64,000 nucleotides of DNA from NCBI GenBank assembly GCA_945874895.1, contig CAMCIC010000017.1:1-64000 (forward strand). Direction: 5' to 3'. The notes below the pieces were generated by a model. That model ran no database searches, was not told where the DNA came from, and saw nothing but the letters and a program-made list of their open reading frames with translations. Source of the stretch: Akkermansia muciniphila. GTDB lineage: Bacteria; Verrucomicrobiota; Verrucomicrobiia; Verrucomicrobiales; Akkermansiaceae. Made by a program: the position numbers and the translations under genes. Positions 6,858 through 12,225 of this stretch are shown piece after piece (position 1 is the stretch's first letter; each line of letters opens with the position of its first letter).

Positions 6858-7994
6858 ATGAAAACCCATTTGCTCTTGGCCGCAGGCATGGCGGCGCTGC
6901 TCTCGTGCCAAAAACCGGTCGCATCCACCGCCGCTTCCGCGGTCCAACAGGAAACGTTCGGCACCATGCCCGATGGACGCGCCGTGAAAATCTTCACCCT
7001 CACCAATGCGAACGGACTCAAAGCCCGCGTCACGGAATACGGCGCGATTCTCGTTTCCATGGAAGTTCCCGACAAAGCAGGAAAGCTCGCGGATGTCACG
7101 CACGGCTATGACACCCTGGAAGGCTGGCTCAGCAATACCTCGTATTTTGGCGCCTCGGTAGGCCGATTCGGCAATCGCATCAAGGACGGCAAGTTCTCCC
7201 TCGACGGCAAGGAATACCAACTGGCGACCAACAATAAGCCCGGCGGCATTCCGTGCCATCTTCACGGCGGACCCAAGGGCTTCGACAAGGTTCTTTGGTC
7301 CGGTCGGGCGATCGGCAACGACGCGGTGGAATTCACCTATGTGTCACCCGATGGCGAGGAAGGATATCCAGGCAATCTCACGGTCAAGGTCACCTACACG
7401 CTGACCGCCGACAATGAACTCGTTTGGAAAGCGAACGCTACCACGGACGCGCCCACGATTCTGAACATCGTTCATCACAGCTACTGGAATCTATCCGGAG
7501 ATCCACGCAGCTCGATCAACGATCACGAGCTCACACTCCACGCGCCTCACTATCTTCCCACCAATAGCGGTCTGATCCCCACCGGCGAGATCGCTCCGGT
7601 GGCGGGCACTCCCATGGATTTCATACAAGCGACCACCATCGGCGCGCGTGTAAATGCCGGCACCGAGGCGCTCACATTCGGGGGCGGTTACGACCACTGC
7701 TGGGTCTTGGAGAAAGGCGAGGGTGTCAAACCGGCCGCAAGACTCAAAGATCCGGAAACAGGACGAGTGATGGAAATTTCCACCGACCAGCCAGCTGTCC
7801 AGTTCTACGGTGGCAATTTCCTCGACGGCAGCGTCTCCGGCAAGGGCGGCGTGAAATACGGTCACCGCAGCGCGCTGTGCCTCGAGACGGAGGGTTTCCC
7901 CGATGCTCCCAACAAGCCAGCCTTCCCCTCCTGCGTGCTCCGCCCCGGCGAGACTTACACGCATGTGATGATTCATCGATTTTCCGTGGAATAA
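6858..7994 (+). CDS. galM: Aldose 1-epimerase (mutarotase), predicted lipoprotein
   Basis: A 378-residue protein of the galactose mutarotase family, which interconverts alpha and beta anomers of aldoses. The N-terminus is a lipoprotein signal ending L-L-S-C (Cys17), so the enzyme is probably membrane-anchored outside the cytoplasm, unlike the cytosolic GalM of E. coli. Family landmarks follow in order: 'GRFGNRIKDGKF', 'HLHGGPKGFDKVLW', 'HHSYWNLSGD' (catalytic His), 'GGGYDHCWVL' and 'LETEGFPDAPNKPAFP' (catalytic Glu). It follows the beta-propeller gene closely on the same strand, consistent with extracellular sugar handling. Confidence 0.93.
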   Translation: MKTHLLLAAGMAALLSCQKPVASTAASAVQQETFGTMPDGRAVKIFTLTNANGLKARVTEYGAILVSMEVPDKAGKLADVTHGYDTLEGWLSNTSYFGASVGRFGNRIKDGKFSLDGKEYQLATNNKPGGIPCHLHGGPKGFDKVLWSGRAIGNDAVEFTYVSPDGEEGYPGNLTVKVTYTLTADNELVWKANATTDAPTILNIVHHSYWNLSGDPRSSINDHELTLHAPHYLPTNSGLIPTGEIAPVAGTPMDFIQATTIGARVNAGTEALTFGGGYDHCWVLEKGEGVKPAARLKDPETGRVMEISTDQPAVQFYGGNFLDGSVSGKGGVKYGHRSALCLETEGFPDAPNKPAFPSCVLRPGETYTHVMIHRFSVE

Positions 7995-8271: not shown

Positions 8272-8520
8272 ATGGCAGACAAATGCATCTACTGTGGTTC
8301 CAACTCCTACGGCTCCTGTTCCCGGAGTCCGCATAACAAGCATGAACACCAAGGCGACGAGAATGAGTGCAAATTTTGCGGCTCCTCCTCATATGGCAGT
8401 TGCAGCCGCAGCCCCCACGGACGTCACCAGCACGGCCACGGCAAAGACAAATGCGTCTACTGCGGCTCAACCTCCGTAGGCTCCTGCTCCCGCAGCCCAC
8501 ACGGGAAACATGAAAGGTAG
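8272..8520 (+). CDS. 82-residue protein of three Cys/His repeats
   Basis: The protein is three near-identical 28-residue units (84 bp each). Each carries the pattern C-x2-C-G-S-x-S-x-G-S-C-S-R-S-P-H-x2-H: Cys5, 8, 16 and His21, 24; Cys33, 36, 44 and His49, 52; Cys61, 64, 72 and His77, 80. Five potential metal ligands per unit suggest three small zinc- or metal-binding modules joined by His/Gly-rich linkers. There is no signal peptide and no membrane segment. A palindrome GTAAC-A-GTTAC (8248-8258) sits 13 bp before the ATG; a Shine-Dalgarno sequence is not evident. No named family is claimed. Function is unknown; metal storage or sensing, or RNA/protein binding, are options. Confidence 0.75.
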   Translation: MADKCIYCGSNSYGSCSRSPHNKHEHQGDENECKFCGSSSYGSCSRSPHGRHQHGHGKDKCVYCGSTSVGSCSRSPHGKHER

Positions 8521-8573
8521 GGGGGGGGGAGATGATTCGATGAGCGGATAACAAAGCCCGTAGGCTCCTAGCC

Positions 8574-9875
8574 TTACGAGCGTCCGCTGAGGCCGGAGAT
8601 GGTCTGGAAGATGGAGGTGAAGATCAGATACATCATGCTGCCGATCAGGCCGGCCATGATGACGAGGATCACCGGGGTGACGAGCGCCATGAGGCGTTGC
8701 ATGTCCTTGGCCATTTCGCGGTCGTAACGTTCCGCGGCGCGGCGCAGGGAGATGTCGATTTTCCCAGTCTGCTCGCCTACGGCCACCATGTCGATCAGCA
8801 GTGGCGGGAAAGCTCCGGCGCGGGTCATGGCTTTGGTAACAGAGCGGCCATCGCCGACCTGGGCGATCACTTGGTCGAGCTGCTTGCGCATCACCAGATT
8901 CCCTGTGGCATCACGGGCCAGCTCCAATGAACGCAGCAGCGGCAGGCCGTTGCCGACGAGGTTGGCCATGGTTTCCAGAAACTGCACGTAGAAGCGGCTG
9001 GAGATGAGTTTGCCGAAGAGTGGCATGTTGAGTTTGATCCCATCCCAGGCGTATTTGTTCTCGGGATTGTCCTTCCAGGCTTTGAAAAAGATCGCGGCGG
9101 CGACGAGCACGAGCGTGATGACGTGCCACCACTCCTTGAGGAAATCCGAGGCACCGATCATGATGGCGGCGCCGAGAGGAACTTTCGCGCCGGGTGTGCT
9201 CTGGATCAGCGAGGTGAGCTGCGGAATGAGCGTGGTGACCAGCAGAATGGAAACGCCGATGCAGGAAAGCACCAGAAATGACGGATAAATCAGCGCGAGG
9301 ACGAACTTCGATTGCAGCTCCTGCAAAGTCTTCAGATAGTGGGCCTGGCGGCGCAGAATCGTATCGAGCGCACCGGAGGCTTCACCGGCAGCGGCGAGGC
9401 TGCAGTAAAGCTGATCAAAGCCGGCACTGGTGCGGCGTAGGGCGTTGGAAAAATTCATGCCATCCCGCACATCCTGACGAAGTCGCTGGGCGATTGCTTT
9501 CAGATTGCCCAGTTCCTGACGGTTTTCCATGGCGAGCAAGGCGGGCTCGAGTTGGAGACCACCACCTAACATATCGGACAGCTCCTCGGTGAACATCACC
9601 ACCTCGGCGCGCTTCATTTTTAGCAGGCCATCGGACTTTTCGGCAGGCTTGGCTTTTTCGCCATCAGCGGGCTTGGAAGAAGGTTTGGCAGTTGGCTTAG
9701 CCGCGGCTTTGTTCGGTTTGGCGGAACCGCTGGTGGCGGAAATCTCCTTGATGGAGACGGGTTGCAGGCCTTTGCGATCGAGCAAACGCAGGGCTTCCGT
9801 GCGATCGGCGGCGTCGATTTCGCCTTGGCTAACGGAGCCCTTGCTGTTGAGCGCTTTGTAGGTAAAAACTGCCAT
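8574..9875 (-). CDS. Type II secretion/type IV pilus inner-membrane platform protein (GspF/PilC)
   Basis: A 433-residue platform protein that couples the assembly ATPase to pilin or pseudopilin polymerisation. A short N-terminal domain ('MAVFTYKALNSKG...') is followed by a Lys/Ala/Pro-rich linker (about 45-90) and two repeated T2SSF domains, each with a hydrophobic segment pair. 'AAAGEASGALDTIL' in the first copy and 'VAVGEQTGKIDISL' in the second are the family signatures. The linker is longer than usual. It sits 12 bp downstream of the GspE-type ATPase on the same strand, so the two form an operon. No pilin, secretin or peptidase gene is nearby. Confidence 0.93.
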   Translation of the reverse strand: MAVFTYKALNSKGSVSQGEIDAADRTEALRLLDRKGLQPVSIKEISATSGSAKPNKAAAKPTAKPSSKPADGEKAKPAEKSDGLLKMKRAEVVMFTEELSDMLGGGLQLEPALLAMENRQELGNLKAIAQRLRQDVRDGMNFSNALRRTSAGFDQLYCSLAAAGEASGALDTILRRQAHYLKTLQELQSKFVLALIYPSFLVLSCIGVSILLVTTLIPQLTSLIQSTPGAKVPLGAAIMIGASDFLKEWWHVITLVLVAAAIFFKAWKDNPENKYAWDGIKLNMPLFGKLISSRFYVQFLETMANLVGNGLPLLRSLELARDATGNLVMRKQLDQVIAQVGDGRSVTKAMTRAGAFPPLLIDMVAVGEQTGKIDISLRRAAERYDREMAKDMQRLMALVTPVILVIMAGLIGSMMYLIFTSIFQTISGLSGRS

Positions 9876-9887
9876 GACTGGATTTCG

Positions 9888-11678
9888 TTAGGCCTCATCA
9901 CCGCCGATGTCGGTGGCGGTGACGGAAATGATTTCCTCGATGGTGGTGAGTCCCTGCATGACCTTGTGCCAGCCGTAGATGCGCATGGGAACGTAGCCAT
10001 CCTTGAGGGCCTGGGCGCGGATCTCGGCGGCGGGGGCTTGGTGGGTGACCATTTCCTGAATCTGCGGTGAAATCAGCGCGGCTTCGTAAATGGCGAGTCG
10101 TCCGGAGAAGCCGGTATTGCGGCAGCGATCGCATCCGCGCGGGCTGTAGGCTTGGCCGACGATGTCGTGCGGGATGCCGAATTCCTCGCGCATCTGGAAC
10201 GTGACCTCACGCGGGACCTTGCAATGCGGGCAGAGGCGACGCACGAGACGTTGGGCGAGGAAGGCGCGCACGGCGGCGGCGACGAGGAAAGGCTCTACGC
10301 CCATATCGATCAGACGGCTGAGACCGCCGAGGGCATCGTTGGTGTGCAGGGTGGAAAACACCAAGTGACCGGTGAGCGAAGCGCGGATGGCGATTTCCGC
10401 CGTTTCTAGGTCGCGAATCTCCCCGATCATCACGATGTTCGGGTCGGCACGGAGAATCGAGCGCAGGGCGGTGGCGAAGGTGAGGCCGATCTCGGATTTC
10501 ACCGCGATCTGCATGACACCGGGGAGCTTGTTTTCCACGGGGTCTTCGACCGTCACGATGCGGCGGTCCGGGTGGTTCACCTCGGTGAGGAAACTGTAAA
10601 GGCTGGTGGATTTGCCCGAACCGGTGGGTCCGGTGATCAGGATGATGCCGTTGGAAAGGTGCAGCAGGGACTCGATGCGCTTGCGCACGAAGGGCTCCAT
10701 ACCGAGTTTATCGAGCGAGAATTTTTCCTGGTTGAGCAAACGCAACGAGACGCTCTCGCCCTCCACGGTGGGGACGGTGGCAACACGGACGTCGATGGTC
10801 TGTCCCTCGAATTGCAGGTTGATACGACCGTCCTGCGGCATGCGGCGCTCGGCGATATCGAGGCGCGACATGATTTTCAAACGGGCGATCACCGAGCTTT
10901 GCAGCGCTTTGATGTTTTCCGGCACGGTGACCTCGACGAGCTTGCCGTCGATGCGGTAACGGATGCGGAGGTTGGTGCTGAGAGGCTCGACATGGATATC
11001 CGTCGCGCGTTGTTCCAGCGACTCGCGGATGATCTGGTTGACGAATTTCACCACGCTGGCTTCCTCGTCGTCGTTGTCATCGATCACGTTGGCTTCGTCG
11101 TGACTTTCCAGGCGTTCGTAGTCGAGATCGCGGCCTTCGAGGATTTGTTCGAAAGTATCCGCACCCACCCCGTAGAGACGGCGGAGGGATTCATGGATGC
11201 GGCGGCGCGAGGCCATGCACCAGTCGATGGGGACGTCGAGCGCTTGTGAGGCGGCTTGGCGGGCGACAAGATTGAAGGGATCGAAGGTAGCGAGCTTGAG
11301 ACGTTTTTTGTCACCTTCCTCGATGATGGCGATGGGCAGCAGACGGTGCCGCAAGGCAATGCGTGGACCGCAAAGATCGCGCAGGGGCAGCGGTTGCTCC
11401 GCAGCGGGGATGGTATCCAGCCACTCCATGCCGATGTCGTGGGCTAGCTCGCGCAGGTATTTTTCCTCATCGACCACATTGGCATCGAGAATGTCATCCA
11501 GGGGAGAACGCTGGCGCAGCGAAGAAGCCTCGATGACTTTTTCTAAGTTCTCCAAATCCTCGCAACCGGAGCGGCGAGCGGGGTCGATCAGTAATTCCAT
11601 CATGGTGACAAGACTCTTCTGCAACAAAAACCGCTGGATGGCAAACTTGTCTTGGAAAAGTTTTGCGTGTGGATTCAT
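9888..11678 (-). CDS. GspE/PilB-family secretion ATPase
   Basis: A 596-residue hexameric ATPase powering type II secretion or type IV pilus extension. An N-terminal MshEN/GspE-N domain precedes the ATPase core with Walker A 'GPTGSGKST' (about 350), an Asp box around 'VTVEDPVE', Walker B 'IVMIGEIRD' and a His box 'HLVFSTLHTND'. A tetracysteine zinc motif CPHC ... CDRC (about 483-519) is typical of GspE/PilB. The ATG at 11678 is preceded by GTGAGGCTTCCG, a good ribosome binding site, and is preferred over the GTG at 11690. It is the first gene of an operon with the GspF/PilC gene. Confidence 0.94.
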   Translation of the reverse strand: MNPHAKLFQDKFAIQRFLLQKSLVTMMELLIDPARRSGCEDLENLEKVIEASSLRQRSPLDDILDANVVDEEKYLRELAHDIGMEWLDTIPAAEQPLPLRDLCGPRIALRHRLLPIAIIEEGDKKRLKLATFDPFNLVARQAASQALDVPIDWCMASRRRIHESLRRLYGVGADTFEQILEGRDLDYERLESHDEANVIDDNDDEEASVVKFVNQIIRESLEQRATDIHVEPLSTNLRIRYRIDGKLVEVTVPENIKALQSSVIARLKIMSRLDIAERRMPQDGRINLQFEGQTIDVRVATVPTVEGESVSLRLLNQEKFSLDKLGMEPFVRKRIESLLHLSNGIILITGPTGSGKSTSLYSFLTEVNHPDRRIVTVEDPVENKLPGVMQIAVKSEIGLTFATALRSILRADPNIVMIGEIRDLETAEIAIRASLTGHLVFSTLHTNDALGGLSRLIDMGVEPFLVAAAVRAFLAQRLVRRLCPHCKVPREVTFQMREEFGIPHDIVGQAYSPRGCDRCRNTGFSGRLAIYEAALISPQIQEMVTHQAPAAEIRAQALKDGYVPMRIYGWHKVMQGLTTIEEIISVTATDIGGDEA

Positions 11679-11700
11679 CGGAAGCCTCACAACGGATCAT

Positions 11701-11754: not shown

Positions 11755-12225
11755 TCAACCCCAATCGCCGCCGCCGCCGTAGCCACCGCCGCCACCGCGA
11801 CGATCACCACCGTAGCCACCGCCGCCACCACGACGGTCTCCACCGCCTTTGTAGCCGCCGCCACCGCCGCCGCCTTTGTAGCCGCCACCGCCGCCGCCTT
11901 TGTAGCCACCGGCGCCGCCACCTTTGTAGCCGCCGCCGCCACCACCTTTGTAGCCGCCGCCACCACCGCCACCTGAGCGAGGCTCACGGGCTTCTGCGGC
12001 ATTGATGCGCAAAGCGCGGCCTTGATAGTCTTGGTCATTCAATGCAGCAATCGCTGCATTGGCTCCCGCTACTTCGCCCATCGTAACAAATGCAAAACCA
12101 CGAGGGCGGCCCGTTTCACGATCGGTGACGATTTTCACGCGTTCCACCGTACCGTAGGGACTGAAGAGCTCGGTGATCTCATCTTCAGTAGCGGAGAAGG
12201 GCAGATTGCCCACATAGATATCCAT
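11755..12225 (-). CDS. RRM RNA-binding protein with a glycine-rich repeat tail
   Basis: A 156-residue single-RRM protein of the bacterial Rbp type, with RNP2 'IYVGNL' (3-8) and RNP1 'RGFAFVTM' (42-49). From residue 84 the tail is almost only Gly, Tyr, Lys and Arg: several copies of 'GGGYKGG', then 'DRRGGGGGYGG'. Such tails bind RNA non-specifically and can promote condensation; bacterial Rbps are known as cold-responsive RNA chaperones. The ATG at 12225 begins the RRM; the frame to 12405 adds unrelated sequence. The 262-bp upstream gap may hold a long leader. The repeat DNA may vary in copy number between strains. Confidence 0.92.
   Translation of the reverse strand: MDIYVGNLPFSATEDEITELFSPYGTVERVKIVTDRETGRPRGFAFVTMGEVAGANAAIAALNDQDYQGRALRINAAEAREPRSGGGGGGGYKGGGGGGYKGGGAGGYKGGGGGGYKGGGGGGGYKGGGDRRGGGGGYGGDRRGGGGGYGGGGDWG

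Follow-up and report, generated by a model that had tools for sequence, protein, structure and literature searches.

The window analysed here, a stretch of 64,000 nucleotides from Akkermansia muciniphila, carries a short gene for a protein built of three Cys/His units (Table 1). The same start is found in the orthologues of two congeners, which are 72% identical to the window protein. When the gene was compared with a congener orthologue, 25 codons were identical, 34 differed synonymously and 23 non-synonymously; YN00 gave a dN of 0.31 and a dS of 1.54 (NG86 returned no valid dS), and the gene is under purifying selection. A simple scan found no promoter-like site between positions 7900 and 8700, which might speak for a spurious reading frame, but this selection and the orthologues in several phyla that share start, length and ligands make that explanation practically inconceivable, and it was dismissed.

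Table 1. Features of the three-unit gene and its immediate neighbours in the window.
Feature	Position	Strand	Remarks
Aldose 1-epimerase gene	6858-7994	+	5' neighbour
Three-unit Cys/His miniprotein gene	8272..8520	+	82 aa, stop codon included; ATG start
Unit 1	8278..8361	+	putative ligands C5, C8, C16, H24; H26 also family-conserved
Ser-Arg directly after unit 1 third Cys	8320..8325	+	member of matched triplet
Unit 2	8362..8445	+	putative ligands C33, C36, C44, H52; H54 also family-conserved
Ser-Arg directly after unit 2 third Cys	8404..8409	+	Ser codon AGC vs TCC in units 1 and 3
Unit 3, shorter	8446..8517	+	putative ligands C61, C64, C72, H80; no second His (R82)
Ser-Arg directly after unit 3 third Cys	8488..8493	+	member of matched triplet
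Type II secretion F protein gene	8574-9875	-	3' neighbour, opposite strand

The starts of the units follow an 84-bp period, corresponding to units of 28 residues. At a lag of 28, 31 of 54 residues of the window protein match, whereas in 100,000 shuffles of the same protein the matches averaged 4.8 and never exceeded 15, so the periodicity is not due to chance. An earlier reading of the sequence alone had described three almost identical units on an 84-bp tandem repeat. The three units and the period were borne out, but the near-identity was not: residues agree at 16/28 positions between units 1 and 2, 19/24 between units 1 and 3 and 15/24 between units 2 and 3, and bases at 43/84, 52/72 and 41/72 (51, 72 and 57%), the repeat being worn at the DNA level. 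The 84-bp array is absent from the output of Tandem Repeats Finder. The same reading had placed three Cys and two His at fixed positions of each unit. All five positions are indeed fixed in the window protein, which has 9 Cys and 9 His among its 82 residues, and units 1 and 2 also carry His24, but one of the two, His19, is not kept in the family.

The G+C content of the gene (0.570, against 0.555 for the window) gives no sign of recent foreign origin. No second match to the window protein was found in its own genome up to an E-value of 10, and no Rfam family reached its gathering score between 7000 and 9500. A run of ten G spans 8520-8529, its first G being the last base of the stop codon. Farther along, a tandem array of 24-bp units (11766-11970, Tandem Repeats Finder score 101) lies just beyond the start of an open reading frame on the minus strand (9888..11690), which judged by eye alone is GspE-like.

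Extent of the family and its conserved pattern

A profile of the unit matched 26 of the 387 genomes of the phylum at an E-value of 0.01. In 12 of the 26, the window's own genome included, the E-value was at most 2e-5 and the unit pattern was present on reading; the other 14, with E-values above 2e-5, were rejected as members because the unit pattern was found in none of their loci. With an alignment of nine relatives as the query, 156 relatives were found in named genomes, and the best 80 of the 156 were read, a subset biased towards complete three-unit proteins; each set of identical proteins was counted as one. Viral contigs contributed 65 relatives, reached only with alignment A3, and the window protein alone as the query found nothing in viral contigs, annotated phages or plasmids. 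The 128 distinct proteins comprise a three-unit set of 80 and a two-unit set of 48, the latter all viral. The 80 and the window protein make up the 81 three-unit proteins counted below, among which L118, L119, L120 and L170 are from viral contigs only. L108, in which the third His is Tyr, was placed in the three-unit set by hand, and L133, with a degenerate third unit and without a fused domain, stands in the two-unit set. The truncated L180 and rows with unknown bases were excluded; L012 (unknown bases) and the two-unit bacterial copies L013 and L014 are outside the 81. Alignment A4 consists of the window protein and 59 of the 80 relatives (60 members).

The best 80 of the 156 relatives come mostly from gut or rumen bins titled Kiritimatiellae, Verrucomicrobia or uncultured bacterium, and include strains of Dyella, Limnohabitans, Brucepastera and Treponema bryantii. 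Bins with the titles Chlorobiaceae, Desulfovibrio, Planctomycetota, Acidobacteriota, Fibrobacter and Lachnospiraceae are also represented among these 80, and bins can be contaminated. The gene is present in 3 of 10 genomes of the genus of the window organism and in 4 of 98 genomes of the genus sample around T. bryantii, with one copy split over two contigs. No flanking gene is common to the first 30 kb of the window and the 17 kb around each congeneric orthologue. In a tree of 81 rows and 71 columns, which is poorly resolved (8 of its 76 inner branches are starred), the window protein is nearest to rows from Spirochaetota and Acidobacteriota and then to its congener. The family is patchily scattered across phyla and the gene is non-syntenic. 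By eye, a -10 box close to the consensus and a site resembling a Shine-Dalgarno sequence can be made out in many of the 79 upstream stretches. N-termini resembling signal peptides were likewise seen by eye in L041, L052, L084, L099, L100 and L113 (6 of the 81) and also in L008 and L009; an exported-looking copy sometimes occurs beside a plain copy in the same genome, with L095 and L113 on one contig.

Every unit of all 81 three-unit proteins contains C-x2-C-x(7-9)-C. His22, eight residues after the third Cys, is present in 81, 79 and 80 of the 81 in units 1, 2 and 3, so that three units with both the Cys pattern and His22 were found throughout the window protein and its 80 relatives apart from 0, 2 and 1 missing His22. 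A His two residues past His22 is present in 80, 79 and 2 of the 81, and His19 in only 14, 4 and 8. The sequence-only reading had named loss of the Cys/His pattern in homologues as a result that would count against it; the Cys set and His22 were kept, and His19 was lost. It had also suggested counting units across genomes, and each of the 80 genome loci read has three, with the two-unit L013 and L014 apart. The unit part has exactly nine Cys in 80 of the 81 proteins and a net charge above zero in 80 of the 81, with a mean of +5.1. In 77 of the 81 the three units have loops of the same length between the second and third Cys (8,8,8 in 63, 7,7,7 in 13 and 9,9,9 in 1); a tree-corrected test of loop length, with 2 pairs on starred branches, was not significant. 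Gly, Ser, Tyr and Pro residues that are not putative ligands are nearly as conserved as the ligands, and the linkers are unit-specific, with a family consensus of HEHxDD after unit 1 and HxHGxG after unit 2. The retention of three Cys and one His in nearly every unit points to one CCCH site per unit, and the odd number of Cys in each unit suits a metal better than disulphides. We infer from these patterns one metal site per unit, of the form C-x2-C-x(7-9)-C-x7-H.

No Pfam or NCBIfam family reaches its cut-off with the window protein. Its Pfam matches, ferredoxin and zf-CHCC among them, all fell under the cut-off and were rejected, and phrog_4694, phrog_29066 and phrog_17317 (E-values of 0.004 to 0.008) were too weak to be taken as evidence of kinship. 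Among the 60 members of A4 the best Pfam E-value was 0.00012 (UPF0547, one member), the commonest family was GF_recep_IV (12 of 60, best E-value 0.0017) and the best NCBIfam E-value was 0.0096 (three members); these tables hold E-values without cut-offs and record weak matches rather than proven absence of a family. The earlier statement that the protein could not be connected to a named family or function agrees with this, as no Pfam or NCBIfam model convincingly recognises the family. A description of the three-unit architecture was not found among openly licensed PubMed Central papers searched by motif strings and concepts. AlphaFold, run with 60 sequences, modelled the window protein at good confidence (pLDDT 86.7, pTM 0.68) and with almost no regular secondary structure. 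Foldseek against the PDB gave a best E-value of 6.7 and the viral structure library one of 4.8, a second fold comparison placed 0 of 7 chains at Z 2, and a profile search against PDB sequences gave no match up to an E-value of 1.

Matched change of the three units

In a set of 26 non-redundant three-unit proteins (75% filter), at three positions, one directly before and two directly after the third Cys, the units of the same protein share their residue in 69-92% of cases, against 14-35% between proteins. Over six columns, chosen by the analyst, 289 of 468 comparisons matched, compared with a mean of 122.7 (sd 9.7, maximum 159) in 2000 permutations, which correct for relatedness only through the 75% filter. 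Columns c+1 and c+2 and the Tyr and Glu/Arg columns show little or no within-protein excess. A weaker excess at the columns five to seven residues past the third Cys indicates that the effect extends past these three positions. The dipeptide after the third Cys is of one kind three times in 14 of the 26 proteins and of two kinds in 12; among all 81 it is of one kind in 43, two in 34 and three in 4. The window protein has Ser-Arg three times, with Ser codons TCC, AGC and TCC, and its congener has Val-Arg three times, with Val codons GTA, GTC and GTG. Changes at the first of the two residues that follow the third Cys in unit 1 were counted on a tree built without the columns of the loop and of this residue pair. 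About 14 of 20 independent changes recurred with the same two letters in unit 2, and for unit 3 the figure was about 12 of 20; because the tree is weakly resolved, this recurrence is only indicative.

Matched change might reflect mere gene conversion between the repeats, without functional meaning. Codons are identical at 95 of 185 matched flanking pairs, against 468 of 1594 same-residue pairs at non-homologous positions, and this is in keeping with conversion. Yet nearby positions are unit-specific (Tyr in units 1 and 2 and rarely in unit 3; Glu, Arg and Glu after His22), which conversion could produce only with very short tracts or with tracts undone by selection, and the matched Ser of the window protein and Val of the congener have mixed codons. 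We consider conversion a doubtful explanation by itself, and in our view selection for equal units is the best account of the matched change. The sequence-only reading had left the choice between three metal sites and a multivalent binding module. Both ideas gained support, the former from ligand conservation and the latter from the matched change of the units, although the presence of metal is deduced from sequence.

Phage forms, mobility and neighbouring genes

In the more frequent phage form, two units are fused to a C-terminal helical domain of about 130 residues. Both units satisfy a stricter unit pattern in 40 of the 48 distinct two-unit proteins, and C, C, C and H are invariant in both units of all 33 that were aligned. 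Profile comparison related the three-unit form to the two-unit form at 99.7% (E-value 2.1e-25). The model of the phage form has a pLDDT of 80 and a pTM of 0.36. Its C-terminal part matches phrog_2086 and phrog_18642, both without annotated function, in 22 of 33 members each, and weakly matches gp61.1 of Escherichia phage RB16 (E-value 9e-6). The RB16 gene (L182:2567-3058) is annotated as conserved hypothetical, and its product has no Cys and no finger units; a methyltransferase gene precedes the RB16 gene, and primase gene 61 follows with one small gene in between.

Neighbours of the two-unit phage form were tested on three contigs, and each has replication or recombination genes close by: L131 has a UvsY-like gene and a helicase, L148 a helicase of phrog_16, which we take to be UvsW-like, and L130 a primase and a QueE-like gene. 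The three-unit viral copies L119 and L120 are near DNA ligase, thymidylate kinase, HNH and QueC-like genes. At L118 and L133 one neighbour each was tested, with no match.

The copy in Candidatus Achromatium palustre (L107, 6001-6255) is the first cassette beside an integron integrase, identified by TIGR02249 at 438 bits, over the cut-off. GTTAGGC precedes the gene, and its complement GCCTAAC opens a strong hairpin after the stop codon. The contig numbering was taken to be that of the record, which fits the open reading frame at L107:4670-5656. The order in L107:4670-6400 is integrase, three-unit gene and attC-like hairpin, followed by a gene that is glycosyltransferase-like by eye only. Cassette hallmarks were convincing at this one of 89 loci; a loose filter was passed by 5 of 890 random placements, all with hairpins weaker than that of L107. 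Rfam searches of eight loci found a single element, a group I intron (RF00028, 69 bits; L046:7793-8046, minus strand) that lies some 1.5 kb from the gene copy in Dyella monticola.

A scan of 150 of the 153 open reading frames listed at 34 loci (31 in genomes and 3 in viral contigs) revealed no recurrent partner gene, as the commonest Pfam families occur in 3 each among the 150 neighbours. Sequence clustering of neighbours within 6 kb at 79 loci gave a widest group present at 9 loci of various titles, an AAA-DUF4143 protein according to the one member tested (L050). Four Treponema-type loci (L101, L103, L105 and L109) are followed, 0.5-0.9 kb further on and on the opposite strand, by genes related to each other; the one tested, at L103, contains a WYL domain (Pfam).

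Possible function and known systems

The reading we favour, tentatively, is that the gene is a solitary accessory one that has spread horizontally and encodes a zinc-binding miniprotein with three sites, which would act by multivalent binding, perhaps of nucleic acid. Each unit of 28-29 residues would fold around one metal, and the three units, in fixed order and joined by unit-specific linkers, would show the same side chains flanking the third Cys three times. Such threefold presentation suggests multivalent binding of a repetitive partner, and most likely the protein would contact a repetitive or extended partner through three equivalent contacts. Nucleic acid is the leading candidate ligand, as a guess, in view of the basic charge of the protein and of the replication and recombination genes close to the phage forms examined; the exported-looking copies mean that an intracellular role on nucleic acid cannot be general. 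A bolder proposal, which we think unlikely as it stands, is that of a threefold recognition module. The flanks of the third Cys would read a repeated feature of the partner, a change in the partner would force the same change in all units, and lineage-specific readings (SR, VR, SY, IH, PY and others) would have been passed between phyla by phages and integrons. The protein is compact, has three comparable units and is present in cultured bacteria, so what the matched residues read is directly testable. If this is true, the protein would provide a small modular scaffold for binding and a case in which selection keeps three repeats in step.

The abundant Cys and His could instead provide capacity, in a metallothionein-like buffer or store serving as an accessory metal-tolerance factor. 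The Cys and His content of the window protein, the patchy spread of an accessory gene and the exported-looking forms are all consistent with a store. We nevertheless judge it unlikely, given the conservation of residues that are not ligands and the constant three units in the genome loci read; moreover, no metallothionein model was seen among 25 of the 29 Pfam families touched by the 60 members at an E-value of 0.1, and no metal transporter or regulator recurred among 25 of the 115 families of the 150 neighbours. Occurrence in viral contigs, an integron and scattered phyla would also suit a protein-protein adaptor in conflict between phage and host, such as a decoy or counter-defence factor, whose partner has several copies of one surface, and the variable matched residues resemble an interface that follows a changing partner. 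Against this, PADLOC matched neither the window protein nor its orthologue, no defence gene recurred beyond GmrSD_N in 3 of the 150 neighbours (the one placed is at L060, some 4 kb away from the gene), and two three-unit proteins had no match in annotated phage and plasmid collections. An adaptor of this kind seems to us improbable.

With regard to integron gene cassettes, the L107 copy is alike, while the window copy lacks the hallmarks (GTTRRRY before the gene and its complement in a hairpin after the stop codon). Metallothioneins form high-capacity metal clusters and their expression is induced by metal. The bacterial SmtA-type proteins are similarly small, with 9 Cys, CxxC motifs and His; the miniprotein differs in its regular three-unit architecture and its many conserved non-ligand residues. 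A zinc ribbon has two CxxC knuckles per site, whereas each unit here has one CxxC, giving three in all 81 proteins, and 80 of the 81 contain just three Cys per unit. The RanBP2-type zinc finger is a short unit with a CxxC, aromatic residues and C4 ligands. The resemblance to it lies in the short CxxC unit with aromatic residues and the difference in the ligands, C3H in the miniprotein against C4, and 2 of the 60 members touch Zn_ribbon_RanBP, with a best E-value of 0.025. The CCHC zinc knuckle of the retroviral nucleocapsid type, with the consensus C-x2-C-x4-H-x4-C, likewise places short tandem metal units on a basic chain, but ligand order and spacing differ from those of the unit described here, and the knuckle is not among 25 of the 29 Pfam families of the 60 members. 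The N-terminal module of environmental T4-like phage proteins has the same unit and the same CCCH pattern but two units rather than three, fused to a helical domain, and RB16 gp61.1 matches only the C-terminal part of these proteins. Small metal-finger proteins are already a known kind; the new finding here is that the residues flanking the third Cys match within a protein and vary between proteins.
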